A stretch of 64,000 nt of DNA from Pyrobaculum sp. 3827-6 (GTDB taxonomy: Archaea > Thermoproteota > Thermoprotei > Thermoproteales > Thermoproteaceae), in contig NZ_JAOTQN010000004.1 of NCBI RefSeq assembly GCF_025641885.1, positions 1 to 64,000 on the forward strand, given 5' to 3'. Position numbers and translations under genes: made by a program. Of the stretch, positions 51,621-64,000 are shown piece after piece (position 1 is the first letter of the stretch; each line of letters opens with the position of its first letter). The notes under the pieces were generated by a model. That model was not told the DNA's origin, ran no database searches, and saw nothing but the letters and a program-made list of their open reading frames with translations.

Positions 51621-52094
51621 ATGAAGCTCTCGGCTGGTGCCAAGTGGGGCGCCTTGACGGGCCTCGTCTTCGGCCTGCTAAGCGGTGTCGTGGGGTACCT
51701 GGCCGTGGAGAGCATCAAGCCTCAGCTTTTGGAGAGTATGTATAGAAAAATTGTGGAGTCGGGCACCCCTCCGGAGGTCGCGAGACAGGCTGTACAGCTT
51801 GCGGCGGGTAACTTAGGGGTTTGGGCGTTGGTGGGTAGCGTTCTGGGCAACCTCATAGTCTTAACCATCGTGGGCTTAATCATGGCCGCGGTGTGGGATA
51901 GGCTGAAGCTTCCGTGGTATGGGAAGGGGGCAATTTTCTCGCTGGCGCTTCTCCTCATCTCTGTGCTACCAGCCGTATTAGTTAAGACACCTAACGAGCC
52001 TGCGCCCCCAGCGGTGTTCCAAGCCGTCGGCGCGTTGCTGACCTTCGCCGGCCCGCTGGTGCTTGCCTGGTTGCTGGAGAGGAGAGGTGGCTGA
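51621..52094 (+). CDS. Four-helix membrane protein of unknown function
   Basis: A 157-residue protein with helices near 8-28, 68-90, 100-120 and 130-152, and an amphipathic stretch ESMYRKIVESGTPPEVARQA between the first two. The ATG follows TTATAAATTAATTAAA by about 25 nt. The stop is 1 nt before the next ATG, so it heads a three-gene operon with the secreted protein and the FtsX-like permease. Confidence 0.6.
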   Translation: MKLSAGAKWGALTGLVFGLLSGVVGYLAVESIKPQLLESMYRKIVESGTPPEVARQAVQLAAGNLGVWALVGSVLGNLIVLTIVGLIMAAVWDRLKLPWYGKGAIFSLALLLISVLPAVLVKTPNEPAPPAVFQAVGALLTFAGPLVLAWLLERRGG

Positions 52095-52095
52095 T

Positions 52096-54102
52096 ATGTT
52101 GCGCGCTACGGCTCTGGCCGTCGCGTTGGCGGCCCTCGCGGCGGGGCAGGCTACTCTCTTCCAGCCGGCGGCTGATTTTCTCTTCCTCGGCGGGCAGTGG
52201 GTGGACCTGCCTAAGTACCCCGGCGACGTGGGGCTGTACAAACTGTCTTTCTACCTCGCCGCCCAGCATGTCGACGTAGGCGTGGAGCTTAAGTGCAGAC
52301 AAGCCTCGGCCGAGGCGGCCCGCGCCGCCTCCGCGGGGCCCGGTGTTTTTGAGGTGGTGCTGAAGGTGAGGGCGGAGGCGCTGGGGGTCTCGGAGGGGTG
52401 CCAGGTGGTGTTTAGGTCAAGGTACACGGTGAAGGCAGGGGCGCTTGGGGACGGCGTTGAGAAGGTGGAGTACCACGAGCTGGCGGTTCCGCACTACCCC
52501 TCCCCCGTGTTTAGGGTAAACGGCTCTCTCTATCTCGGGGTTGTGGGGAGGGTGTCGCTGTGCGTATACGACGGGTATACCTACAACGGCACCGTGGAGG
52601 TGTCCGCCGTTGGGGCGAGGCTGTACGGCGACGCGCGGTTTAGAGGCGAGCTGGGCAACTGGTGTGGATACGTGGCTGTGGCGCCTCTGGACTTCAACGC
52701 AGCGCTGGTGGTATCTGTGAGGACGCGGGACGCGCTGGGGAGGGAGGTGGCCGTGTCGCGGCAGATCCCCCTGGCGGTTAGGCCCAGGCCGGCCCCCCTC
52801 GTCGTGCCTAGGGTGAGGTGGCTGAGGGCTGGTCTCGTGGAGTCTGTGGGCTTCGCCGTAAGGTACAGCATACCGGTGAACGGCACGGTGTACGCAGGCG
52901 GCTCCTCGGCGCCGCTTGTAAACGGCGAGGCGGAGGTATGGGGCTCTGTATACGCCGCTCCCCCGGTGGTCTACGTGCCGGTGGTTGTGCAACTAGACAC
53001 CGGGGCTGTGGACCGGGTGGAGGTGCCCCTCCCGGTATACTCTGTGCCCGCCGACGTGGTGGAGATAGCCGTGTCGCCCACGACGCTGGTGGCCGGCGAT
53101 GTGAACAACGTCAAGATCTCCATCAAGTACCCCGGCGTTTTTGAAGGGTCTATCTCCGTGTCGGGCGGGGTGGCGCTGGGGGTCAACCCCGTGACCTTCA
53201 CCGCCAGCGACAAGGCCGAGCTGACTCTCCAGATAGTGCCCACCTCCAGCGTGGTTGCTCTAGACGTCACCGTGGTGAACCCTGGGGGCTACTCCACGAG
53301 GCGCGTGGTGAACCTCCTGGCGGCTCAGAGGCAGATATTCGACGTCTCCGTGGAGCCGTCTGAGGTGGCCTCCGGGGGGAGGCACGTCCTGCGCATCTAC
53401 GTGAAGCCCCTTGTAAACGTGTCGGAGGCTACGGTCACGCTGTTTCCTGTCAGCGGCTTGGTCTTCCCCCAGATCACCGCGAGGCTGGGGAGGGGAGGGG
53501 TTGTTGACATCCCCGTGGAGGTCCCCTCCGACGTCGTGGGCACAGCCGCCCTTGGGTACAAGATCGTGTACACCCTTGCGTCTGGAGTCTCCGGGGAGTA
53601 CGGAGGGACGCTGTACCTAGTAGCCACCCAGCGCCCGGTCCTGTCCCTCTCCGCCTCGGTCAGCCCCGAGAAGGCCGAGCCCGGCACCCCCTTCTACCTA
53701 ACGGTGAGGCTCTACAACTCCGGCGGTGTGGAGGCGAGGGACGTCAGGCTAAACGTCTCGGGCCCCGTCAAGGTGGTGAGGCAGCCCGGCCCGCTGGGCG
53801 CAGTGCCGCCCCAGACGAGCAAAGACGCCGTCTTCACCCTAACGGCTGACAGCCCCGGGAGGTACCAGGTAAGGGTAGCCGCGACGTATTGGGATAGGCT
53901 CGGCAGAAGCTACACAGCGGAGCAGACGGTGGAGGTGGTGGTCAACAAGACGGAACCTGCTTACGCCCCGGCGACGGCTACGGGCTCGGGAGGCGGCGGG
54001 GGGAGCAACCCGCAGCTCTACGCCGTTGCGGCGCTGGCGGCGGTGGCAGTTGCGCTGTTGGCGCTGGGCTTCAGGCGGGGCCGTGTTGCCAGACGTAGCT
54101 AG
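52096..54102 (+). CDS. Large exported protein with CARDB-like domain and C-terminal anchor
   Basis: A 668-residue protein: a signal peptide (ATALAVALAALAAGQA), several beta-sandwich repeats, a CARDB/APHP-like domain (SPEKAEPGTPFYLTVRLYNS, about residue 540), a Gly/Ser linker (TGSGGGGGSN), and a final helix with FRRGR stop-transfer. It is probably attached outside the cell. It overlaps the FtsX-like gene by 20 nt; bacterial and archaeal CARDB-permease pairs suggest a transport or envelope role. Confidence 0.7.
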   Translation: MLRATALAVALAALAAGQATLFQPAADFLFLGGQWVDLPKYPGDVGLYKLSFYLAAQHVDVGVELKCRQASAEAARAASAGPGVFEVVLKVRAEALGVSEGCQVVFRSRYTVKAGALGDGVEKVEYHELAVPHYPSPVFRVNGSLYLGVVGRVSLCVYDGYTYNGTVEVSAVGARLYGDARFRGELGNWCGYVAVAPLDFNAALVVSVRTRDALGREVAVSRQIPLAVRPRPAPLVVPRVRWLRAGLVESVGFAVRYSIPVNGTVYAGGSSAPLVNGEAEVWGSVYAAPPVVYVPVVVQLDTGAVDRVEVPLPVYSVPADVVEIAVSPTTLVAGDVNNVKISIKYPGVFEGSISVSGGVALGVNPVTFTASDKAELTLQIVPTSSVVALDVTVVNPGGYSTRRVVNLLAAQRQIFDVSVEPSEVASGGRHVLRIYVKPLVNVSEATVTLFPVSGLVFPQITARLGRGGVVDIPVEVPSDVVGTAALGYKIVYTLASGVSGEYGGTLYLVATQRPVLSLSASVSPEKAEPGTPFYLTVRLYNSGGVEARDVRLNVSGPVKVVRQPGPLGAVPPQTSKDAVFTLTADSPGRYQVRVAATYWDRLGRSYTAEQTVEVVVNKTEPAYAPATATGSGGGGGSNPQLYAVAALAAVAVALLALGFRRGRVARRS

Positions 54103-55213
54103 GCTTGCGTGGCTGGCGGTTAGGGAGAGGGCCGGCAGGTCGGCGCTAGCCGCCTTGGGCGTCTTCATCGCCTTCCTGGCCCTCGCGACGGCGCTCTCCA
54201 TAGGGGAGACCTTCAAGGGCGTCGTGGAGGAGGCCTTTCAGCGCCTTGGGCTAAACACGGTGTGGATACTGCCCCGGTTTAGGCCACTTACAGAGGCCGA
54301 CGTGGCCACGGTTTCCGCCCTCCTCCCAACGGCTGTGATTATACCGATGACGGGGGAGGGCGCCAAGGCGAGGTTGCCAGACGGCTCCGAGAGGGACGTG
54401 ATGATATACTACGTGCCGCCGGAGGCCGTGGACGTGTTAATTCCGCGGGACGCCTTGAAATCCGGCGTCATGTCGATAGGCGGCTCCCTAGCCCTGGTCT
54501 CCACCAGGGTCAAGATGGCCGGGGACGTACCGCTCGAGCCAGGCATGCCTGTTACGCTGGAGCGCTCGACGGGGCCGCCGCTGGAGGTGACAGCGGCGGG
54601 GGTGGTGGACCTCTCCGGCATCGCTGGTCCACTCGGCGGCGGCGACGTCTTTGTGGACAGAGCCCTCTCCGCGGTGGAGGGCTACGCCTTGATCTACGTC
54701 ATCACGGACAGCCCCCAGACGGCGGAGAAGGCGGCGGCCCGGCTGACGCCCTACTTCCCAGACGCCACCATTCTCTCCCCCCAGGTACTGGCGCGACAGG
54801 TTGGGCAGTTCGCCGCCATTGCCCAGCTGGGGCTCGGCGTCTTGGCCGGCGTAAGCGCCTTGATAACCGCTATGTGGCTCTACGACACCATGACAATATC
54901 TATTCTGCAGAGGACGAAGGAAATCGGCATAATGAGGGCCGTCGGGTTCAAGAGGAGGCACATCCTCGCGGTGATACTCGCCGAGTCTCTCATTGTAATA
55001 GCCATGGGCATCGCCGCCGCGCTACCGGCACTGTTCCTCATCTCGCAGATATCAATCCCCATAGGCTTCGGCGCCGCACTGAAACTCAGAATAGCCCCCG
55101 TGGCCGTGCTCGCCTCAGCCGCGGTGGTGCTGGCCGCCAATCTGCTAGGCGCCCTGGCCCCCGCCTGCAGAGCAAGTAGACTAAACATAGTAGACGCCCT
55201 CAGATACGAATAG
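54083..55213 (+). CDS. FtsX/MacB-like ABC transporter permease
   Basis: 376 residues: an N-terminal helix (LAALGVFIAFLALATALSIG), a ~200-residue extracellular domain, and three C-terminal helices with TKEIGIMRAVGFKRRHILAV, the conserved FtsX coupling region, ending in ASRLNIVDALRYE. A permease of this type needs an ATPase, but none is adjacent. The GTG at 54083 lies inside the end of the previous gene. The 250 nt downstream show no gene. Confidence 0.82.
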   Translation: MLPDVARLAWLAVRERAGRSALAALGVFIAFLALATALSIGETFKGVVEEAFQRLGLNTVWILPRFRPLTEADVATVSALLPTAVIIPMTGEGAKARLPDGSERDVMIYYVPPEAVDVLIPRDALKSGVMSIGGSLALVSTRVKMAGDVPLEPGMPVTLERSTGPPLEVTAAGVVDLSGIAGPLGGGDVFVDRALSAVEGYALIYVITDSPQTAEKAAARLTPYFPDATILSPQVLARQVGQFAAIAQLGLGVLAGVSALITAMWLYDTMTISILQRTKEIGIMRAVGFKRRHILAVILAESLIVIAMGIAAALPALFLISQISIPIGFGAALKLRIAPVAVLASAAVVLAANLLGALAPACRASRLNIVDALRYE

Positions 55214-55467
55214 AGATGCGAGAGGCAAGGGCTCCACAGCCGCCATCAACCTGGGCGTAGTGCGGTTTAGGGAGGGGTGCCGAACTACCAGCCGCGCGTT
55301 TCAAGTCTGTAGCCGCGGGTCAGACACGCGCCTACTGTACGACTTTCGGCATTGCTCCGGCAGTGTCCAGTGACCCCTCGTCCACGTTGCCGCCATCGTC
55401 ACGGCGGTGACGTAAAGTAGAGGAGACGCCTGGCGAAGACACGCCAGCTGTGGCAAGGGGCCCTGTT

Positions 55468-55755
55468 CTACTCGGTCGGCAGTATTTTAAAGTCTTGGAA
55501 CTCGCCGCGGTACTCCTCCCAGCGCACCTCCAAGTCCTCTACACGGGCGCCGGGGGGCCCCACCCGTGCCCACTGGAGGACCTTCTCCACCGCGTCCTTC
55601 GGCCCCTCCAGCACGGCCTCGACTGTCCTGCCGTCGGATCTGTTCCTGACCCAGCCCTTGACGCCGTGTCTAGTGGCGACCTCTCTCATAGACTGCCTGA
55701 AGAAGACGCCCTGCACCCTCCCCCTTATGAAGACGTGGGCTCTCACCATGTCCAT
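55468..55755 (-). CDS. acyP: Acylphosphatase
   Basis: A 95-residue acylphosphatase: VFIRGRVQGVFFRQSMREVA (phosphate-binding loop with the catalytic Arg) and GVKGWVRNRSDGRTVEAVLE (catalytic Asn). It hydrolyses acyl phosphates such as carbamoyl phosphate. ATG 55755 lies about 24 nt from a CTATAAAAAC box shared with deoC on the other strand. Confidence 0.93.
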   Translation of the reverse strand: MDMVRAHVFIRGRVQGVFFRQSMREVATRHGVKGWVRNRSDGRTVEAVLEGPKDAVEKVLQWARVGPPGARVEDLEVRWEEYRGEFQDFKILPTE

Positions 55756-55773
55756 GCCGGGTTGTGGGAGAAT

Positions 55774-55783
55774 GTTTTTATAG
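55774..55783. promoter_or_regulatory. Shared bidirectional TATA-like box (acyP / deoC)
   Basis: GTTTTTATAG is centred 23-25 nt from both the acyP ATG (55755, minus) and the deoC GTG (55802, plus), so one AT box could serve both leaderless transcripts. Confidence 0.5.
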
Positions 55784-55801
55784 ATGTGGCGCTTTTCCCC
55801 A

Positions 55802-56482
55802 GTGCTCCAGGTGGTGGACTACGCCCTTCTCAAGCCGTACCTGACCGTGGAGGATGTGGCGAGGGGTGCCGCTAGGGCTGAGGAGCTGGGGGTGGCCTCC
55901 TTCTGCGTCAACCCGGTCTACGCCCAGTACGTGAGGCCGCTTCTGAGGAGGGTGAAGCTCTGCGTGGTGGTCGACTTCCCCTTCGGCGCCTCCCAGACCT
56001 GGGAGAGGGCGCAAGCCGTCTCTAGGCTCGCGGAGGTGGCGGAGGAGCTGGACGTCGTGGCGCCGATCGGCTTGGTGAAGTCCCGGAGGTGGGTGGAGGT
56101 GAGGCGGGACCTCGTCAGCGTGGTGGGGGCGGCCGGCGGGAGGGTTGTCAAGGTGATCGTAGAGGAGCCTTATCTCACCGACGAGGAGAGGTACAGGCTG
56201 TACGACATAGTGGCGGAGGCCGGGGCCCACTTTATAAAAAGCTCCACCGGCTTCGCCGAGGAGGCCTACGCCAAGCAGCTGGGCAACCCCGCCCACTCCA
56301 CGCCTGAGAGGGCGGCGGCGATCGCCAGGTACATCAGAGAGAGGGGGTACAGACTGGGGGTGAAGATGGCCGGCGGGATTAGGACAAGGGAGCAGGCCCG
56401 CGCCATTATAGAAGCCATAGGCTTCGGCCTGGACCCGGCGCGGGTTAGGCTGGGGACCTCCACACCTGAGGCCCTCGCGTAA
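55802..56482 (+). CDS. deoC: Deoxyribose-phosphate aldolase
   Basis: 226 residues: DYALLKPYLTVEDV at the start, VVVDFPFGASQT, HFIKSSTGFAEEAY and GVKMAGGIRTREQA (Schiff-base Lys and phosphate loop). It cleaves 2-deoxyribose-5-phosphate to glyceraldehyde-3-phosphate and acetaldehyde. GTG 55802 is preferred to ATG 55784 from promoter spacing. The stop overlaps the next ATG by 1 nt. Confidence 0.92.
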   Translation: MLQVVDYALLKPYLTVEDVARGAARAEELGVASFCVNPVYAQYVRPLLRRVKLCVVVDFPFGASQTWERAQAVSRLAEVAEELDVVAPIGLVKSRRWVEVRRDLVSVVGAAGGRVVKVIVEEPYLTDEERYRLYDIVAEAGAHFIKSSTGFAEEAYAKQLGNPAHSTPERAAAIARYIRERGYRLGVKMAGGIRTREQARAIIEAIGFGLDPARVRLGTSTPEALA

Positions 56483-56898
56483 TGGGGGCCTGCCTCTCCG
56501 TACTCCAGAGGGCATCGGAGGCGCGGGGGGCCATAAACGACGCCTTGAGGATAGCCAGCCGCGGATTTGAGGAACTCAGCGACGAGGAGGTGTGGGCCCT
56601 TCGGTACCAGCTAATTGTGCTCGTGGAGACCCTCGCCTCTATGTGCATAAAGTTCGCGAGGGCGTCGTGGGGCCGCGTGTTTTCCTCCTACCGCGAGTGT
56701 CTAAGGGAGGTGGACAGGGGGCTGGGGACCGGCTGTGGAGAGGTCCTAGCCGCCTTGGTGGGGCTCCGCAACCTCCTCGTCCATAGATACTTCGCAGTGG
56801 ACGACAGAAGGGTGTACGACGCGGTGAAGAGCGACTTCAAATGCGTTCTCGAATTTATCAAGAGGGTTGAGGAAAATGCGCCCTGTCTACCAAGTTAG
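56482..56898 (+). CDS. HEPN/HepT-like protein with intact RX4HXY motif
   Basis: A 138-residue helical protein ending with a canonical motif R96-NLLV-H101-R-Y103, as in HepT toxins: Arg and His are RNase residues and Tyr is the AMPylation site. It begins in the TAATG overlap with deoC, so it may be co-transcribed with a housekeeping gene. It overlaps the MNT gene by 23 nt. Confidence 0.82.
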   Translation: MGACLSVLQRASEARGAINDALRIASRGFEELSDEEVWALRYQLIVLVETLASMCIKFARASWGRVFSSYRECLREVDRGLGTGCGEVLAALVGLRNLLVHRYFAVDDRRVYDAVKSDFKCVLEFIKRVEENAPCLPS

Positions 56899-57250
56899 GC
56901 TGGACGAGGTTCTGGAGAAGTTGAGGAGGGCGGCCGGCGGCAGGAGGCTGGCCGTGCTGTTCGGCTCCGCCGCGGAGTCGGAGGTGGTGCACGACATCGA
57001 TGTCCTCATCGACGGCTCGGATCTGGGAGAGGCCCTCCGCCTCGCGGCCGAGATAGAGGAGGCCCTGGGCGTCCCCGCAGACGTGGTGCCCGCCGGATTC
57101 GCGCCGCCTTGCCTCGTCGCCGAGGCCCTGACGCGGGGCGTCGTGGTGGCCGCCGACTGGGACTACTACGACGAGCTACTGTACCTCTCAGTGGGGCAGT
57201 GCCAAGACCTCAAGATTAAGCTTAGAGAAGCGGGGATTAACATCCCTTAA
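56876..57250 (+). CDS. MNT-type nucleotidyltransferase with shortened GS-DxD loop
   Basis: 124 residues from ATG 56876: LFGSAAESEVVHDIDVLIDG carries the GS and DxD of MNT enzymes, but only eight residues separate them, against ten in the other two MNT proteins here. It lacks the usual central Gly. It is the partner of the upstream HEPN protein (23-nt overlap). Confidence 0.78.
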   Translation: MRPVYQVRLDEVLEKLRRAAGGRRLAVLFGSAAESEVVHDIDVLIDGSDLGEALRLAAEIEEALGVPADVVPAGFAPPCLVAEALTRGVVVAADWDYYDELLYLSVGQCQDLKIKLREAGINIP

Positions 57251-57440
57251 CCCCCTTTTGTAGCACCTATTCGGCACAGACGCTACGTGGCCCACTTTCC
57301 CAGCTACGTGGGAACGGAAACTAGACCGCGTTCACGTACAGGCATGAGACTTAAGACTATGCCGTAGTCCATCGCCACGTTGACGGTATGTACATGGTGG
57401 CGCGTCACGCGGCAATCTATCAACGGCCTCACATTATCAA

Positions 57441-57456
57441 TAATTATATATAATTA
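57441..57456. repeat. 16-nt perfect AT palindrome
   Basis: TAATTATATATAATTA is its own reverse complement. It lies in an AT-rich 270-nt intergenic region, about 50 nt upstream of the TATA-like box of the membrane-protein cassette. Possible operator; no cognate regulator is proven. Confidence 0.6.
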
Positions 57457-57502
57457 AGAATTTCGAATTATTTAGTAACATTATATCCTAATAATCTAGA
57501 AA

Positions 57503-57512
57503 AAATTTAAAG
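57503..57512 (+). promoter_or_regulatory. TATA-like box of the membrane-protein cassette
   Basis: AATTTAAAGA is centred about 24 nt upstream of ATG 57531, in a leaderless arrangement. Confidence 0.55.
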
Positions 57513-57530
57513 AGAAAAATTTTGGGGCAC

Positions 57531-57851
57531 ATGCAAAGCGAAAGAATAGTATTAAATGCAATGTTACTACTAACGCTACTAGCAGTGAACATGGCAATAT
57601 ACGCTACACTCGCCACAGCAAAAACACCAGCCGTAACACCCAACGCAGGACTGTATATATATGGCACATTAGCGAATGATGAGAGAGCAATAAAAGCGGC
57701 AGATTACTTAACTGGTAGAGTAGTTACTGGTTGGGGCGCTGGCACATTTTGGACTTCGGTTCTTTTGAGAGCACTTGGATTTACAATATGGGCTGCTAGA
57801 TTTGCTATAGCTGGTGGAATAGGCATAATGGTCTTTTTCGGCATTGCATAG
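57531..57851 (+). CDS. Small secreted-looking hydrophobic protein
   Basis: 106 residues: a signal-peptide-like start (LNAMLLLTLLAVNMAIYATL) with a possible cleavage near ATLATA, a short polar middle (GTLANDERAIKAADYLTGRV) and a Gly/Ala-rich hydrophobic end (ALGFTIWAARFAIAGGIGIM). The layout resembles secreted amphiphilic peptides or bacteriocin precursors, but no homologue is recognised. Codons are AT-richer than most of the window. It is 4 nt from a gene for a membrane HExxH protein. Confidence 0.65.
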   Translation: MQSERIVLNAMLLLTLLAVNMAIYATLATAKTPAVTPNAGLYIYGTLANDERAIKAADYLTGRVVTGWGAGTFWTSVLLRALGFTIWAARFAIAGGIGIMVFFGIA

Positions 57852-57855
57852 GCTT

Positions 57856-58896
57856 ATGTCAATGAATAATAGAGTGAATCAATTTTTTTCTTCAGTTGGC
57901 GTATTTCTAATCAACTACGCTATATTCATAACTCTTGTAGTGGTATTTCTGATTTTAGAATTTGGGTTTTCAAGTTTTATAGAGAATATATTTATTAGAT
58001 TCATCATGTTTTTAATTATTATACAAACAATAAACGAGATGCTTTTATACGTTTTTGGATTGTGGTATAAAAAGTATTGTAGTTCGTTTTCTGTGAGTGG
58101 TCGAATTACGAAAACGTATATCTGCCTCCTAGACTACTCTCCATTTGGCGCCGTGTTTAGGGGGTTGTTCCTTACCCTTGTCTTAACGCCACGAGAAATT
58201 CTAAGACATGAGTTATACCACGCCCGTGACATAAAACCTCTCTTTGTTATCTTGCTAAGGAATATAGCACTCGCATATTCCGCTTCTCATATAGCCAGCA
58301 TTATGCCAAAAGGTCTAGGTGCGTATTTAAACGTTCTGACCATATATCTAATACTATTAGCAGTTATCGCCGCTGAGTTTGACGCCAGGAGATTTGGCGA
58401 GGGGAAGCCATTCTCGGTGCTGACCTACATGACCCATTCAAATTGGCGGGAGTATTTAAGAGTTGCAATAAAACCTAGAACGCCTGAAGAGGCTACAAAA
58501 ATAAGGTGGGACTTCGTCATACTGAAGCATTGGACAATTGCAATGGCCATGTCTGCGGCAGTTGGTAATGAGTTTTATATTGGGGAGCTTCTGAAAAGTC
58601 CTCCGCTGGTTGTTGTAGCTCTTGTTGGTAGTGTTTCTGCTCTTGCGGTATTTGTCTATATATTGAATGTGTTTTCTCGTCGGTTGTTTGGCGATGTGTT
58701 GGGGTGGTTTGCGGCGCCGGGGGCGGTTCTGGGCGGGGTGTTGCACCCCCTCGCCGGGCTGGCCCTCGCCTTTTTGTCTGTCTGGCTTGTGTCAGATAGG
58801 AAGACGGCTGTCGTCATGACGGCGCTGTCGGTTTTGGTTGTTGCCTATATCTGGGCTATATATCATGTTGCGTATCATTTTGTTAATATTTCTTAA
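57856..58896 (+). CDS. Polytopic membrane protein with HExxH zinc-peptidase motif (M48/M56-like)
   Basis: 346 residues with about eight helices. The motif REILRHELYHARD puts H118-E-L-Y-H122 beside a membrane segment. About 52 residues later, AAEFDARRF offers Glu174 as third zinc ligand, resembling the ExxAD-type motif of M48/M56 peptidases. The C-terminal half has four further helices. It is probably a membrane metallopeptidase; the upstream small protein is a candidate substrate. The first two-thirds is AT-rich. ATG 57856 is preferred to TTG 57844. Confidence 0.65.
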   Translation: MSMNNRVNQFFSSVGVFLINYAIFITLVVVFLILEFGFSSFIENIFIRFIMFLIIIQTINEMLLYVFGLWYKKYCSSFSVSGRITKTYICLLDYSPFGAVFRGLFLTLVLTPREILRHELYHARDIKPLFVILLRNIALAYSASHIASIMPKGLGAYLNVLTIYLILLAVIAAEFDARRFGEGKPFSVLTYMTHSNWREYLRVAIKPRTPEEATKIRWDFVILKHWTIAMAMSAAVGNEFYIGELLKSPPLVVVALVGSVSALAVFVYILNVFSRRLFGDVLGWFAAPGAVLGGVLHPLAGLALAFLSVWLVSDRKTAVVMTALSVLVVAYIWAIYHVAYHFVNIS

Positions 58897-59125
58897 TAAC
58901 TTTATATTTGCGGTGTTGATTTACTTGTCGCCTAGGCCTTACTCGATGGCATTGCTGGCGGCTGCCGGGGTTTTGTTAGTTGTTGTGGCCGTGACCGTCC
59001 CAGTGTCTATTGTCGTGACGTTGTTAGAGGGCGTAGCGTATTACGCGGCTTGGAGGCGGAGGCTTTATATAGCGGCGCCGCTTCTGGCCCTCGGTGCCTA
59101 CCTAGAGTGTATACAACTATGTTGA
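58865..59125 (+). CDS. Small three-helix membrane protein in the peptidase cassette
   Basis: An 86-residue protein: helices LRIILLIFLNNFIFAVLIY, ALLAAAGVLLVVVAVTVPVS and a short C-terminal one. It overlaps the peptidase gene by 32 nt and the next gene by 7 nt, so translation is coupled. Unknown function. Confidence 0.6.
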   Translation: MLRIILLIFLNNFIFAVLIYLSPRPYSMALLAAAGVLLVVVAVTVPVSIVVTLLEGVAYYAAWRRRLYIAAPLLALGAYLECIQLC

Positions 59126-59511
59126 AAGTTGCGATATATTACGGCTTTTTGCTCGGCTTGGCGCTGGGGGCGGCGCTGGGGGTTGTTGCATATTTCGAGA
59201 CTGTGGCGCTTGCCCGCGGGGCTGGGCTGGGAGAGGTGGAGGTCACAGCTTTCGCCGTCGCCGTGGCCGGGGGCGCCGTCGTGGGTGGGGTTATTCTTTG
59301 GAGTTTCGGCGGCTTGCTTGCCGGCTTGTTGTGGCGTCGGGTTGTTTTGCCGTGGCCTTTGTTTGGCGCCGCGGTTGGGCTGTTGGTGGCGGCGGTGGAT
59401 ATGGCTCTGTATATAGCAAGCCAGTTAGAACCCGATCCCAAGTTCATTCCGGTGCACGTAGCAATAGGCATAGCGCTAGCCGCTATTCTGAAGCGAAAAA
59501 AGACGAGCTAA
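59119..59511 (+). CDS. Four-helix membrane protein in the peptidase cassette
   Basis: A 130-residue protein with Gly/Ala-rich helices (GFLLGLALGAALGVVAYF, VAVAGGAVVGGVILWSFGG) and a basic C-terminus (LKRKKTS). ATG 59119 overlaps the previous gene. GC content is back to the level of the rest of the window. Unknown function; possibly a transport or immunity protein. Confidence 0.6.
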   Translation: MLKVAIYYGFLLGLALGAALGVVAYFETVALARGAGLGEVEVTAFAVAVAGGAVVGGVILWSFGGLLAGLLWRRVVLPWPLFGAAVGLLVAAVDMALYIASQLEPDPKFIPVHVAIGIALAAILKRKKTS

Positions 59512-59614
59512 GCCGTAGCGGCGTAGGAGCGAAATCGCCCTTCTGAACTAATCTTTAGTAGTCGGCTAAGTCCTTCTCGACGGCGCTGGGGGTGGTGTTG
59601 ATCTCTTGGGTCTA

Positions 59615-59977
59615 CTACCGCTTACCTGTGAGGAGTTTCCACAGGGCGAGGGAAACCACGCCGAGGCCTACGAGTATGGGGAGCGCGGGTAGCCACCTCT
59701 CCACGATTTCCCAGGCCTCTGCCTCTCTGCCGGCTCTGCGGAGCTCAACGGCGTCTCCCAGCTCTCTCCTGGCCTGTTCTCTCCACTCCTCCAGCGTCTT
59801 GCGCCCGGCTTCTGTCAAGACGTAGCGGGCGCCTCTTCTCTCCACGTAGCCCCTCTCCTGGAGGGTGTTGATTATAGCCTCTACGTCGTGGGGCTCCATG
59901 TCTAGCATCTTGCTGATCCTGCCGGGGGGCGTTCCTGAGGCGAGGGCCTCCAGGACGAGGTAGTACTCGATCTTCAC
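59615..59977 (-). CDS. Winged-helix protein with C-terminal membrane helix
   Basis: 120 residues from GTG 59977: EYYLVLEALASGTPPGRISK and HDVEAIINTLQERGYVERRG are clearly homologous to the protein at 6966-7436, followed by a charged helix and ALPILVGLGVVSLALWKLL, a single membrane helix ending GKR. A TATATATT box about 25 nt upstream favours 59977 over 59998. It is convergent with the peptidase cassette and a candidate regulator of it (inference). Confidence 0.72.
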   Translation of the reverse strand: MKIEYYLVLEALASGTPPGRISKMLDMEPHDVEAIINTLQERGYVERRGARYVLTEAGRKTLEEWREQARRELGDAVELRRAGREAEAWEIVERWLPALPILVGLGVVSLALWKLLTGKR

Positions 59978-60006
59978 GCAGGTGTCCCGCTCCGTCAATA
60001 TATACT

Positions 60007-61095
60007 TTACGGCCTTTTCCTATTCATCCAGAGGACGAAGAGAATTGCCGCTATGATTATCACCACCCATATCAGTATGTGCAGTCCGTAGCCGCCTCCC
60101 CTTGCGGCCGCCGTGGTGGTCGTGGGCTGAGTGGCGGCGGTTGTGGTGGGCTGGGTTCTCGTCGCGGGGGGCGTTGCGGGGGTTGTCGCCGTCTGTGTGG
60201 TGGCTGGCGTCCTGCCGCCGGCTTCTCTGTACCACTGTAGCACCAGGGCCTTGAGGCGCTGGGCTAGCTGGGGGTTGTGGATTAGGAGGCCGACTTCTCT
60301 GTTCCTCTGTATTGAGTAGTAGCCGATGTTTATCGAGCCGACGTAGACGTAGTCGCCTACTACAATTATCTTGGCTACGACGTCCTCGTCCACTGCGGTG
60401 TTTATGTCGGCGTCTGTCCTAGCCACCACGGCGTAGTACGTGGGGTGCTGGAGGATTAGGGGGACTAGGCCGGAGTCTGTGTATATCTGTTCCATGGCTA
60501 TGTACAGCTCGCCGGGCTGGCTGAGTATCCACTCGAGGCCGTCTTGGGAGTTTACCGGCGACACCAATACGCCGGGGTAGTTGTAGCGGGGGTACACCCC
60601 GCGGTAGTCGTTGAGGATTATGGTGGCCAGCTGGCGGGCGAGGGTGGCGTTGTGGATCACCAGCATCACCCCCTTGTTTTTGCCGAAGCCCGAGGCCGTT
60701 GGGTTGATGTTGCCTATTATGACTGTCTTGTTGTCTATGACGTATAGCTTTGTGTGGACGTTGGGGAAGTCGCCGTTCCACCTAACCTTCACGCCGTTGC
60801 TCTCCATGTAGCTGGCGAGCTCCTTTGCCTGCTGGGGGACTCCGCCGTATACCTTAGCCGAGAGGACTACGTAGACATCGACGCCCCGCTTGGCGGCCTC
60901 GACTAGGGCGTCGGCAAGGGGTTTGTAGGTGAGGACGTAGACCTCTACGTACACCGACTGCTTCGCCCCCTTGACGTAGTCTACAATTTTTGTAGTGTTT
61001 ACGGGAGAGATCAGCACCGAATTAACTTCAAGTCTTATGGGCGACGCGGCCAGTACGAATAACGCCGCCAGAAGCGCCAGTATTAAGAGGCGCAT
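60007..61095 (-). CDS. Extracellular, membrane-anchored phospholipase D-like protein
   Basis: 362 residues: a signal peptide (LLILALLAALFVLAAS) and a PLD repeat with intact HKD (VHTKLYVIDNKTVIIGNIN, H114, K116, D121). A second repeat follows in which the motif reads VAKIIVVGDYVYVGSIN, so His is Val and Asp is Gly. A Thr/Pro/Ala-rich linker and a C-terminal helix (ILIWVVIIIAAILFVLW) with RKRP follow. It could cleave phosphodiesters outside the cell as a dimer, or have lost activity. Confidence 0.78.
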   Translation of the reverse strand: MRLLILALLAALFVLAASPIRLEVNSVLISPVNTTKIVDYVKGAKQSVYVEVYVLTYKPLADALVEAAKRGVDVYVVLSAKVYGGVPQQAKELASYMESNGVKVRWNGDFPNVHTKLYVIDNKTVIIGNINPTASGFGKNKGVMLVIHNATLARQLATIILNDYRGVYPRYNYPGVLVSPVNSQDGLEWILSQPGELYIAMEQIYTDSGLVPLILQHPTYYAVVARTDADINTAVDEDVVAKIIVVGDYVYVGSINIGYYSIQRNREVGLLIHNPQLAQRLKALVLQWYREAGGRTPATTQTATTPATPPATRTQPTTTAATQPTTTTAAARGGGYGLHILIWVVIIIAAILFVLWMNRKRP

Positions 61096-61114
61096 ATAGC
61101 CGCCTCCGCACGTC

Positions 61115-61615
61115 TTATAAAGTTTTGCGTTTTAGAAGTCTGTACCAGAGGCGCCTCGCCGTGTATTCAAACCCCAGCGTCTTGGCTATCTCCACCGCCG
61201 TCTTCATCTTCTGCCTAAGCTCCTCGGGGCTGTGGGGATTTGTCACGCCGCCTGCCCCGGGCGCCCAGTCGTACACCACCACGAGGCGCCTCGCCACCCT
61301 CTCCATCTCCAGCAAGGCTCTGCGCACGTCTTTAAAGTGGTGTAGCGCCACGACGGAGATCGCGGAGTCGCACGCGGCGTCGCGGTAGGGCAGGGCCTCC
61401 GCCGGCGCCAGGTCTAGCCTAAGCATGCCGATCTCCACGAACTGCCGGAAGCGGCTCCTCAGGCTCGTCACCGCGCCGGGGTCGACGTCCACCGCGCAGA
61501 CCCTCACCCCCCTCCTCAGGAGGTACTCCGTCGAGGCGCCGAAGCCGGCTCCCACGTCGACTGCGGAACTCCCCAGATTCAAGGCGTCTAGGTCTTGGAA
61601 AATCTCCTCTATCAC
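61115..61615 (-). CDS. Class I SAM-dependent methyltransferase
   Basis: A 166-residue protein: motif I AVDVGAGFGASTEYL, CAVDVDPGAV and SAISVVALHHFKDVRRALLE match Methyltransf_11. The C-terminal lid is short. The substrate is unknown. It overlaps the upstream hydrolase gene by 4 nt (ATGA-like), so the two form an operon. Confidence 0.8.
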   Translation of the reverse strand: MIEEIFQDLDALNLGSSAVDVGAGFGASTEYLLRRGVRVCAVDVDPGAVTSLRSRFRQFVEIGMLRLDLAPAEALPYRDAACDSAISVVALHHFKDVRRALLEMERVARRLVVVYDWAPGAGGVTNPHSPEELRQKMKTAVEIAKTLGFEYTARRLWYRLLKRKTL

Positions 61616-62730
61616 AGTTGCCTCAGCGCGTACTCCGCCGCCTCCTCAGCTGTGGAGGCTTTTACAACCGCCATGAATCCCGTGACGTGTTTAAAAACCA
61701 CGGCGTCGCCCCTGAGCCTCCTCAGGTCTATCACGCTGGCGTATTTATCCGGGCGCCACACCGTGTATGCGCCCTTCGTGCGGCGATCCCTCACCACTAT
61801 GATCGCCGGCTCGTTTGACAACACGCCGGTGTCGAGAAGGGCGTTCCAGAGTGGGGCCGGGGGGATGTTGTCCTCTACGGCGATCGCCACGGCGGCGTCG
61901 CCCCGCACTAGGCTGTACCGCCCGCTGGTCACCAGTTCCACGGCCTTCGCCGCGTCGCCGAAGTACTTCTCCAAGCCCTTCAGCACATAGGGCTCCAGCT
62001 CGGGCACAGCCAGCACGGCGTAGGCGCCGAAGTCCACCCCAAAGCCGGTCTCGTAGGCCTCCTTCGTCGCGGCGGCCGCCACCGGGTCCCTAGCCGCCGA
62101 GAGCATGAGCCTCAGGTTTTGGAAGGTCCGGGGGAACCTCTCGGCGGCGTCGGCGTATGGTAGCCGCTCGGCGAGTTTAAAAGCCTCGTGGAAAGCCGGG
62201 AGGTCCACCTCCAGCCTGGCGTACACCGCCTCGGCGACGAGGTCTAGAAACTTCTCGTCTTTCACAACGCCGTGGAAGTCTGAGAAGTACTTCGTAAGGC
62301 CGTTGTTGAGGGAGTTGCCGTAGGGACCGGCCCACCTCTTGGCCCCGGGGCCGTATCTGTCGAAGAGGTCGAGGAAGTGTATCAAGGTGGCGACGAGCGG
62401 CGTGGGGCGGGCCCCCACGGCGTACATAACCTGCACGACGCTTGACGGCTCCTCCGAGGGGTCTGACACGCCGTGGTGGTCGAGGACGGCGTAGCGCTCC
62501 GGGAGCTTGTCTCTAAACGCGTCGCCGATGTCCGCCAACACCACGCCTCCGCCCACCTCGAGTACCTCCTCCACCGTGTTGAGGCGGTAGACGACCTCGG
62601 CGCCGTGCCGCCTCAGCAACGCGGCGGCTACGGTGTCGTCTGCGTGCGCCGTCCCTCCGTGGGTAACGGCCACAAACCCGCCCGACTTAATGAGGCGGGA
62701 GGCTTTGAGCACGTCGTCGAGCCACGACAC
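61612..62730 (-). CDS. MYG1/DHH-like metal-dependent hydrolase
   Basis: A 372-residue protein: VTHGGTAHADDTVAAALL, VVLADIGD and YAVLDHHGVSDP give the metal-binding His/Asp set of MYG1 (UPF0160), a family related to DHH phosphoesterases with exonuclease activity reported for eukaryotic MYG1. The GTG start is 55 nt from the divergent MalK-like gene. Confidence 0.75.
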   Translation of the reverse strand: MSWLDDVLKASRLIKSGGFVAVTHGGTAHADDTVAAALLRRHGAEVVYRLNTVEEVLEVGGGVVLADIGDAFRDKLPERYAVLDHHGVSDPSEEPSSVVQVMYAVGARPTPLVATLIHFLDLFDRYGPGAKRWAGPYGNSLNNGLTKYFSDFHGVVKDEKFLDLVAEAVYARLEVDLPAFHEAFKLAERLPYADAAERFPRTFQNLRLMLSAARDPVAAAATKEAYETGFGVDFGAYAVLAVPELEPYVLKGLEKYFGDAAKAVELVTSGRYSLVRGDAAVAIAVEDNIPPAPLWNALLDTGVLSNEPAIIVVRDRRTKGAYTVWRPDKYASVIDLRRLRGDAVVFKHVTGFMAVVKASTAEEAAEYALRQL

Positions 62731-62784
62731 GGCTTTCCCTATTTTTTCATTAATAACTTTTAAAGGTTGGTTATTGGTAGATAC

Positions 62785-63852
62785 GTGGTCTCACTCCAGG
62801 CGGAGAAGCTCGAAAAGTTTTTTCCACCAAATGTATACGCCTTGAGAGACGTAAACGTGTCTATCCGGGATGGGGAGTTTCTGGTGGTGCTTGGCCCCTC
62901 TGGCTCTGGCAAGACCACCTTTATCCGGTGCATCGCTGGTCTTGAAACCCCTACCAAGGGGCGGATTTTATTCGGCGACGTGCCGGTTGTGGACGTGGAG
63001 AGGGGGGTGAACGTCCCGCCGGCGAAGAGGAACGTGGGGATGGTGTTTCAGAACTGGGCTCTTTACCCCCACATGAAGGTGTTTGATAACATAGCCTTCC
63101 CCTTGAAGATTAAGAAGCTCCCGAGGCGGGAGGTTGAGAAGCGTGTGAGGGAGGTGGCCGAGGCGCTGGGCATCTCCGACTTGCTGAGCCGCTACCCCCG
63201 GCAGCTTTCGGGGGGCCAGCAACAGAGGGTGGCGATTGCCAGGGCGTTGGTTAAGGAGCCGCAGGTCCTCCTTATGGATGAGCCGTTTTCTAACCTAGAC
63301 GCGCGGTTGAGGATCTCGGCGAGGGAGTTTGTGAAGAGTCTCCAGAGGAGGCTGGGGATAACCACTATCTTGGTGACCCACGACCAGCACGACGCGTATG
63401 CCCTCGCCGATAGGCTCATGATTATAAACAACGGGGTGGTGCAACAAATCGGCACCACCGACGAGGTGCTTAACAACCCGGCTAACGTCTTCGTGGCGCA
63501 GTTCTTCGGCGATCCGCCTATAAACCTGGTGGAGGGCGAGGGCAGAGGGGACTTCGTCGACTTGGGCGATTTGAAGATACCTGTCCCGGCGCCACCGAGC
63601 AGGCTCCAGGTTGGAATTAGACCCACTGATATATACGTCGCTGATAGGCCCCTCAACCCCGGCGATATTGAGCTGACGCCGGGTAGGATAGTGTTGGTGG
63701 AGTACCTCGGCTTCACGCCGGTGGCCGTTGTGAGGTGGGAGAGGACTGAGATAAGGGCGGCTATGTACAACAAGTTGAGAGAGGGTGACGCCGCCAGGGT
63801 CTTTCTAAGGAAGGAGGGGGTTAAGCTGTTTAGAGACGGCGTACGAGTTTAA
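62785..63852 (+). CDS. MalK/GlcV-like ABC transporter ATPase
   Basis: 355 residues: Walker A GPSGSGKTT, Q-loop VGMVFQNWALYPHM, signature LSGGQQQRVAIARAL, Walker B VLLMDEPFSNLD and a C-terminal TOBE/MalK-type regulatory domain (VGIRPTDIYVADRP). It energises carbohydrate import (CUT1 type) and can serve several permeases; none is adjacent. GTG 62785 is preferred to TTG 62767 from the TTTTAAAGG box spacing. Confidence 0.87.
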   Translation: MVSLQAEKLEKFFPPNVYALRDVNVSIRDGEFLVVLGPSGSGKTTFIRCIAGLETPTKGRILFGDVPVVDVERGVNVPPAKRNVGMVFQNWALYPHMKVFDNIAFPLKIKKLPRREVEKRVREVAEALGISDLLSRYPRQLSGGQQQRVAIARALVKEPQVLLMDEPFSNLDARLRISAREFVKSLQRRLGITTILVTHDQHDAYALADRLMIINNGVVQQIGTTDEVLNNPANVFVAQFFGDPPINLVEGEGRGDFVDLGDLKIPVPAPPSRLQVGIRPTDIYVADRPLNPGDIELTPGRIVLVEYLGFTPVAVVRWERTEIRAAMYNKLREGDAARVFLRKEGVKLFRDGVRV

Positions 63853-63921
63853 TAAATGGCTAAATTTATAATTAATAATTGTTTAAGTGAAATTTAAAAA
63901 TTGAGGTTACTACATATTTAC

Positions 63922-64000
63922 ATGGGAGTAGTAATTGTTGGGTATGTGAGGACTCCCATTGGCAAATTCGGAGGCGCCTTGAAAGATGTAAAGACGCCCC
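63922..64000 (+). CDS. Thiolase (acetyl-CoA acetyltransferase), 3' partial
   Basis: The last 26 codons begin VVIVGYVRTPIGKFGGALKD, the typical N-terminus of thiolases, and run off the window. ATTTAAAAATTG lies about 25 nt before the ATG, and the intergenic region is AT-rich. Confidence 0.8.
   Translation, partial: MGVVIVGYVRTPIGKFGGALKDVKTP

Follow-up and report, generated by a model that had tools for sequence, protein, structure and literature searches.

A block of about 2.36 kb carrying four genes lies between two convergent genes in the 64,000-nucleotide stretch of Pyrobaculum sp. 3827-6 DNA analyzed here, which we call the window. The insertion is real, sharply bounded, and strain-specific, and it holds a two-gene, AT-rich core for which relatives were not detected. 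Its features are listed below.

57251..59611, no strand: lineage-specific insertion between the gene for an MNT nucleotidyltransferase and the gene for a winged helix-turn-helix (wHTH) protein, defined by blastn and by reading of the junctions
57500..57512, + strand: AT-rich element AAAAAATTTAAAG, resembling a TATA box and transcription factor B recognition element (BRE), about 25 nucleotides before the ATG at 57531, from sequence reading
57531..57851, + strand: gene 1, 106 amino acids, a small secreted or two-helix membrane protein as judged by translation, hydropathy, and composition
57856..58896, + strand: gene 2, 346 amino acids, a multipass membrane protein as judged by translation, hydropathy, and motif statistics
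58901..58908, + strand: TATA-like box CTTTATAT, just 3′ of the gene 2 stop and about 25 nucleotides before the TTG at 58925, from sequence reading
58925..59125, + strand: gene 3, a small membrane protein of 66 amino acids from its likely TTG start at 58925, or of 86 amino acids from the alternative ATG at 58865
59119..59511, + strand: gene 4, a 130-amino acid membrane protein, short divergent paralogue of a DUF4199-like family, from hidden Markov model (HMM), hhalign, and pairwise comparisons

A preliminary description of this DNA had reported four open reading frames on the + strand, at 57531-57851, 57856-58896, 58865-59125 (86 amino acids when read from ATG), and 59119-59511, and all four are present.

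The limits of the insertion are set by comparison with G004, the sister genome and nearest relative, whose DNA is about 96% identical on either side. Blastn matches to the corresponding locus (L031) cover window positions 52002-57238 (96.8% identity) and 59615-64000 (95.5%), and the two blocks meet in G004. Read base by base, the stop codons of the convergent MNT and wHTH genes are separated by 2,361 bp in the window and by 7 bp in G004. A PLD-family gene next to the wHTH gene is kept near full length in seven other genomes of the genus, where its neighbors are deoxyribose-phosphate aldolase and wHTH genes (four genomes), the aldolase gene only (two), or the wHTH gene only (one). No match to gene 1 or gene 2 was found in these seven genomes, either at the slot or elsewhere. 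Because G004 carries the empty site and genes 1 and 2 are absent from the other genus members searched, the block is most simply a gain on this genome's own lineage. Contamination is an unlikely source, since the insertion is well flanked within a 197-kb contig and the contamination stated for the genome is 0.04%.

The block bears none of the marks of an integrating element that were looked for. Neither an integrase nor a tRNA was seen, nor any target-site duplication or terminal repeat; specifically, there is no terminal direct repeat, and inverted matches between the ends extend to 6 nucleotides only. Whole-genome DNA searches with the insertion returned only pieces of 28-41 nucleotides near where gene 4 begins (best E value 4e-4), and a search for RNA families gave nothing credible.

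Base composition divides the block. GC content is 31-42% over positions 57300-58350 compared to 57-69% around them; from about 65% it drops over the first two genes, then recovers in the course of gene 2 and across genes 3 and 4. GC content at third codon positions (GC3) follows the same course, from 0.30 in gene 1 to 0.40 in the N-terminal part of gene 2 and 0.47 thereafter, then 0.56 in gene 3 and 0.65 in gene 4, with 0.76-0.87 in the flanking genes. Genes 3 and 4 are thus less AT-rich than the first two genes, and because both have relatives in other genomes, the AT-rich core that lacks detected relatives comprises genes 1 and 2 only. The preliminary description had contrasted the AT-rich first two genes with their GC-rich surroundings and had suggested acquisition. 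The contrast is borne out, and acquisition is now strongly backed by the empty site in G004 and the lack of relatives of both genes.

Gene 1 has a signal-like N terminus (residues 5-30), with a candidate ATA|K cleavage site after residue 30. Its tail (residues 63-106) is cationic, hydrophobic, and glycine-rich, with three K/R and no D/E residues and with 82% of positions hydrophobic or glycine. Hydropathy and composition therefore agree with the signal-like start and glycine-rich hydrophobic end noticed before. The AlphaFold2 (AF2) model is helical, with a predicted local distance difference test score (pLDDT) of 73.6 and a predicted template modeling score of 0.32. Open reading frames of at least 106 codons arose in 86 of 1,000 first-order Markov simulations, so chance could account for the length of gene 1 taken by itself. 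Beyond length, the gene has a TATA-like box at leaderless distance, its signal-like start, and a link to gene 2, which begins only 4 nucleotides downstream on the same strand. The AAAAAATTTAAAG element fits a putative leaderless gene 1 transcript. No relatives of gene 1 were found among 81 relatives of the host, 300 genomes of the phylum, IMG/VR, and phages, and the protein had no match in Pfam, NCBIfam, PHROG, PADLOC, or the sequences of the PDB, and with neither a Pfam nor an NCBIfam match it belongs to no curated bacteriocin family found there.

For gene 2, chance can be set aside as the source of the reading frame: none of 1,000 first-order Markov simulations reached 346 codons, and the longest had 169. 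The protein contains H118-E-L-Y-H122 and, further on, E174-F-D-A-R, at the positions expected from the earlier mention of HELYH with a downstream EFDARRF. An HExxH motif occurs in 0.6% of shuffles of this protein, and the combination of HExxH with E[FY]xA 40-90 residues downstream occurs in 0.005%. By hydropathy, gene 2 has about two helices ahead of HELYH, a clear and a weaker one between HELYH and E174, and three beyond E174. M48 peptidases such as HtpX have the order TM-TM-HExxH-TM-TM-E (TM, transmembrane helix), with which the helix order in gene 2 agrees.

The preliminary description had read this arrangement as that of an M48 or M56 zinc peptidase, and here the motif order fits and the family membership does not. 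Like the M48 peptidases HtpX and Ste24, gene 2 has the HExxH zinc motif of M48 (PF01435), a later E-[FY]-x-A, about two helices before the first motif, and two between the motifs. Unlike them, it has extra C-terminal helices, and its counterpart of ExxAD, E174-F-D-A-R, retains the E and the A with D replaced by R. The distance from HExxH to E is 56 residues in gene 2 compared to 70-81 in all but one of 30 M48 members from the clade; the exception, L057 at 137, probably reflects a false first HExxH in an open reading frame that was picked too long. Profile similarity is also lacking, as detailed below. For M56 (PF05569), hmmscan gave no match with the whole protein or the core, although a profile comparison aimed at M56 was not made. 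An assignment as an M50 site-2 protease was rejected: the second motif of that family, NxxPxxxxDG, is absent, and the protein contains neither NxxP nor DG. Gene 2 may work like an M48 peptidase, but we do not class it as an M48 member, and a peptidase role is plausible from its motifs and helix order.

Searches for relatives of gene 2 had other outcomes that should be recorded. The few weak matches are short and mostly cross stop codons, and they look like chance. Degenerate DNA encoding HEL[YF]HAR was found in 398 Thermoproteota genomes only in the window itself and in an M50-like protease, the HELFHAR protein of L034, which is not a relative of gene 2. HELYHARD patterns in GTDB and IMG/VR led to no membrane relative, and the motif was not recovered from L090 and L092; these contig scans used short exact peptide patterns, by which distant relatives could be missed. 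Pfam, NCBIfam, PHROG, PADLOC, and PDB sequences gave no match.

We tentatively propose that genes 1 and 2 encode a peptide and its membrane zincin protease, residing in a "dark matter" slot and serving as a toxin or a signal. As the empty site shows, one Pyrobaculum-like lineage gained the block, and the variable slot that received it lies between the MNT and wHTH genes. The AT-rich core would be a two-gene unit, probably transcribed from its own TATA box, and the gene 1 product would be exported or inserted into the membrane by means of its signal-like start. From motif order and helix placement, gene 2 is predicted to be a multipass zincin-type membrane protease in which HELYH and E174 bind zinc near the membrane face. 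This enzyme would most likely trim or clear the gene 1 product in the same membrane, such that a cationic hydrophobic peptide is released or controlled. The peptide, in turn, might act on the membranes of neighboring cells or as a signal. Genes 3 and 4, membrane proteins of the host clade within the same insertion, may be passengers or could provide self-protection. Several observations favor the pair: the empty site, the absence of both genes from other members of the genus, their low GC content and GC3, the 4-nucleotide same-strand spacing, the rare combination of HELYH with EFDA, the HtpX-like helix order, and the signal-like start and net-positive tail of gene 1.

Several results weigh against this proposal. 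With hmmscan, neither the whole gene 2 protein nor its core had a Pfam match, M48 included. A custom HMM built from the 30 clade M48 proteins scored gene 2 at 7.0 bits, which is within the range of shuffled sequence (129 of 500 local shuffles reach it), and hhalign against M48 gave 0.2-0.3%. The single-sequence AF2 model of gene 2, with a pLDDT of 49, is too poor to use. The host genome already has three M48 peptidases. Gene 2 has no relatives among the 81 host relatives, the 398 Thermoproteota genomes, GTDB contigs, IMG/VR, phages, or plasmids, and gene 1 likewise has none, so residue conservation and gene linkage lend the pair no support. Nor were a transporter, modification enzyme, or recognized immunity gene found.

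Ordinary ORFan turnover is about as good an account. Under this explanation, the insertion is a patch of rapidly evolving membrane genes that share no common function; gene 2 may be a membrane quality-control protease or a non-enzymatic membrane protein, and gene 1 a small membrane protein whose role is unrelated. We give it roughly the same weight as the peptide-protease pair because small, lineage-specific membrane or secreted proteins are common in such dark-matter islands (PMC4158269). Turnover is in keeping with the origin of genes 3 and 4 in families of the host clade and with the lack of profile support for gene 2 in any peptidase family. However, turnover does not account well for the tight pairing of genes 1 and 2, their shared AT-rich composition unlike that of genes 3 and 4, or a motif combination that is rare by chance.

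A different arrangement, in line with the antimicrobial-and-immunity idea of the preliminary description, would make all four genes one operon, in which gene 1 is a toxin, gene 2 a protease for its maturation or export, and immunity is provided by genes 3 and 4. The common strand and the single insertion that holds all four are in its favor, and immunity proteins are often small membrane proteins like those encoded by genes 3 and 4. However, the relationships of these two genes make such an operon improbable. Gene 3 matches a 71-amino acid protein of L032, from another genus, with 40% identity over 62 amino acids (pairwise E value 4e-08; 3.7e-6 in the genome search), and beside that relative there is no relative of gene 1, 2, or 4. 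Because the start of the L032 protein roughly coincides with that of gene 3 when read from TTG 58925, and because CTTTATAT lies about 25 nucleotides upstream, gene 3 probably starts at this TTG behind its own TATA-like box. With this start, gene 3 need not overlap gene 2. Thus, where the preliminary description had all genes 4 nucleotides apart or overlapping, the 4-nucleotide gap between genes 1 and 2 and the 7-nucleotide overlap between genes 3 and 4 stand, and the overlap of gene 3 with gene 2 is the less likely reading.

Gene 4 also has its kin outside the insertion. Against an HMM of the family represented in the window by the gene at 51621-52094, it scores 52.6 bits, where the best of 1,000 local shuffles reached 21.3, with an hhalign value of 97% (E value 8.9e-11) and a pairwise E value of 3e-6. 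This DUF4199-like membrane family, which falls just below the cut-off for Pfam DUF4199, has members in 15 of 19 genomes from the Thermoproteaceae, the family of the host. Gene 4 is a divergent member, 27 residues shorter and located in the insertion. Genes 3 and 4 each have their own TATA-like box and a GC3 unlike that of genes 1 and 2. The proposed four-gene cassette is therefore not upheld, given a fourth gene that is a paralogue of a common host family and a third that occurs elsewhere without the others. Similarly, the suggestion that the set is undescribed holds for genes 1 and 2, which match no family or phage (and, for gene 2, no plasmid). As separate observations on the gene 4 family, the gene at 51621-52094 (relatives L066-L079) is directly followed by a surface glycoprotein-like gene and then a MacB-like permease gene, and in G009 a 94-amino acid membrane protein, which we take to be DUF5658-like by its look, is encoded directly upstream of a family member (L014, 1885-2169).

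Finally, the block could be what is left of a virus or other small mobile element, with a viral membrane protease in gene 2 and a holin-like or structural membrane protein in gene 1. This would suit an AT-rich block without detected relatives, the exact empty site, and the two-helix layout of gene 1, but it is a poor prospect: an integrase, att repeat, tRNA, and terminal repeats are lacking, neither gene 1 nor gene 2 has a relative in PHROG, phages, or IMG/VR, and gene 2 has none in plasmids.

The insertion is flanked by two gene pairs.

56482..57250, + strand: HepT-like HEPN and MNT nucleotidyltransferase pair, left neighbor outside the insertion, common to G004 (L031)
59612..61095, − strand: wHTH and PLD-family surface protein pair, right neighbor, conserved in most of the genus, from Pfam and synteny

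The left pair matches PF01934 (E value 8.8e-14) and PF18765 (E value 6.7e-6, just below the curated cut-off) and is likely a toxin-antitoxin system. Because this pair also sits at the slot in G004 but not in the other relatives compared, the slot takes up genes repeatedly, with the HepT/MNT pair having apparently entered before the 2.36-kb block. On the right, the PLD-family protein (60007-61095) has a signal-like start and a C-terminal membrane anchor and is paired with a wHTH membrane protein. In G008 (L023, C1:285037-285726), an M48 peptidase gene (E value 1.5e-22) is located some 750 bp upstream of the PLD gene, at its end facing away from the slot.

The closest published parallel to the peptide-protease pair is found in Thermococcus dark-matter loci, where secreted proteins (arCOG10027, arCOG10028, and arCOG10066) are encoded with a zincin metallopeptidase proposed to cleave them in a bacteriocin-like or quorum-sensing/signaling role (Makarova et al. 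2014; PMC4158269). Both cases combine a lineage-specific variable locus, a small secreted protein, and a proposed metal peptidase partner. However, the Thermococcus peptidase is large with an Ig-like domain and is accompanied by several secreted paralogues, whereas the present locus has a 346-residue multipass candidate and one small partner. Published crenarchaeal protein toxins are few, and the papers found name the sulfolobicins, membrane-associated toxins of Sulfolobus (PMC4609331). We liken them to gene 1 by function only, with no sequence comparison, and no paper came up when the literature was searched for archaeocins together with Pyrobaculum.

It is conceivable, though we consider it unlikely, that the locus represents a two-gene conflict or signaling system of hyperthermophilic Thermoproteales, in which a membrane zincin protease from a family other than M48, M56, or M50 would process a hydrophobic cationic peptide encoded directly upstream. 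If only ORFan turnover is at work, the locus is still a well-delimited example of gene entry into a fixed slot. If the pairing of peptide and protease is correct, its compactness and its place next to an exact empty site would make it a cleanly testable case of high-temperature peptide conflict or signaling, and it would supply a candidate membrane zincin that falls into no known family.
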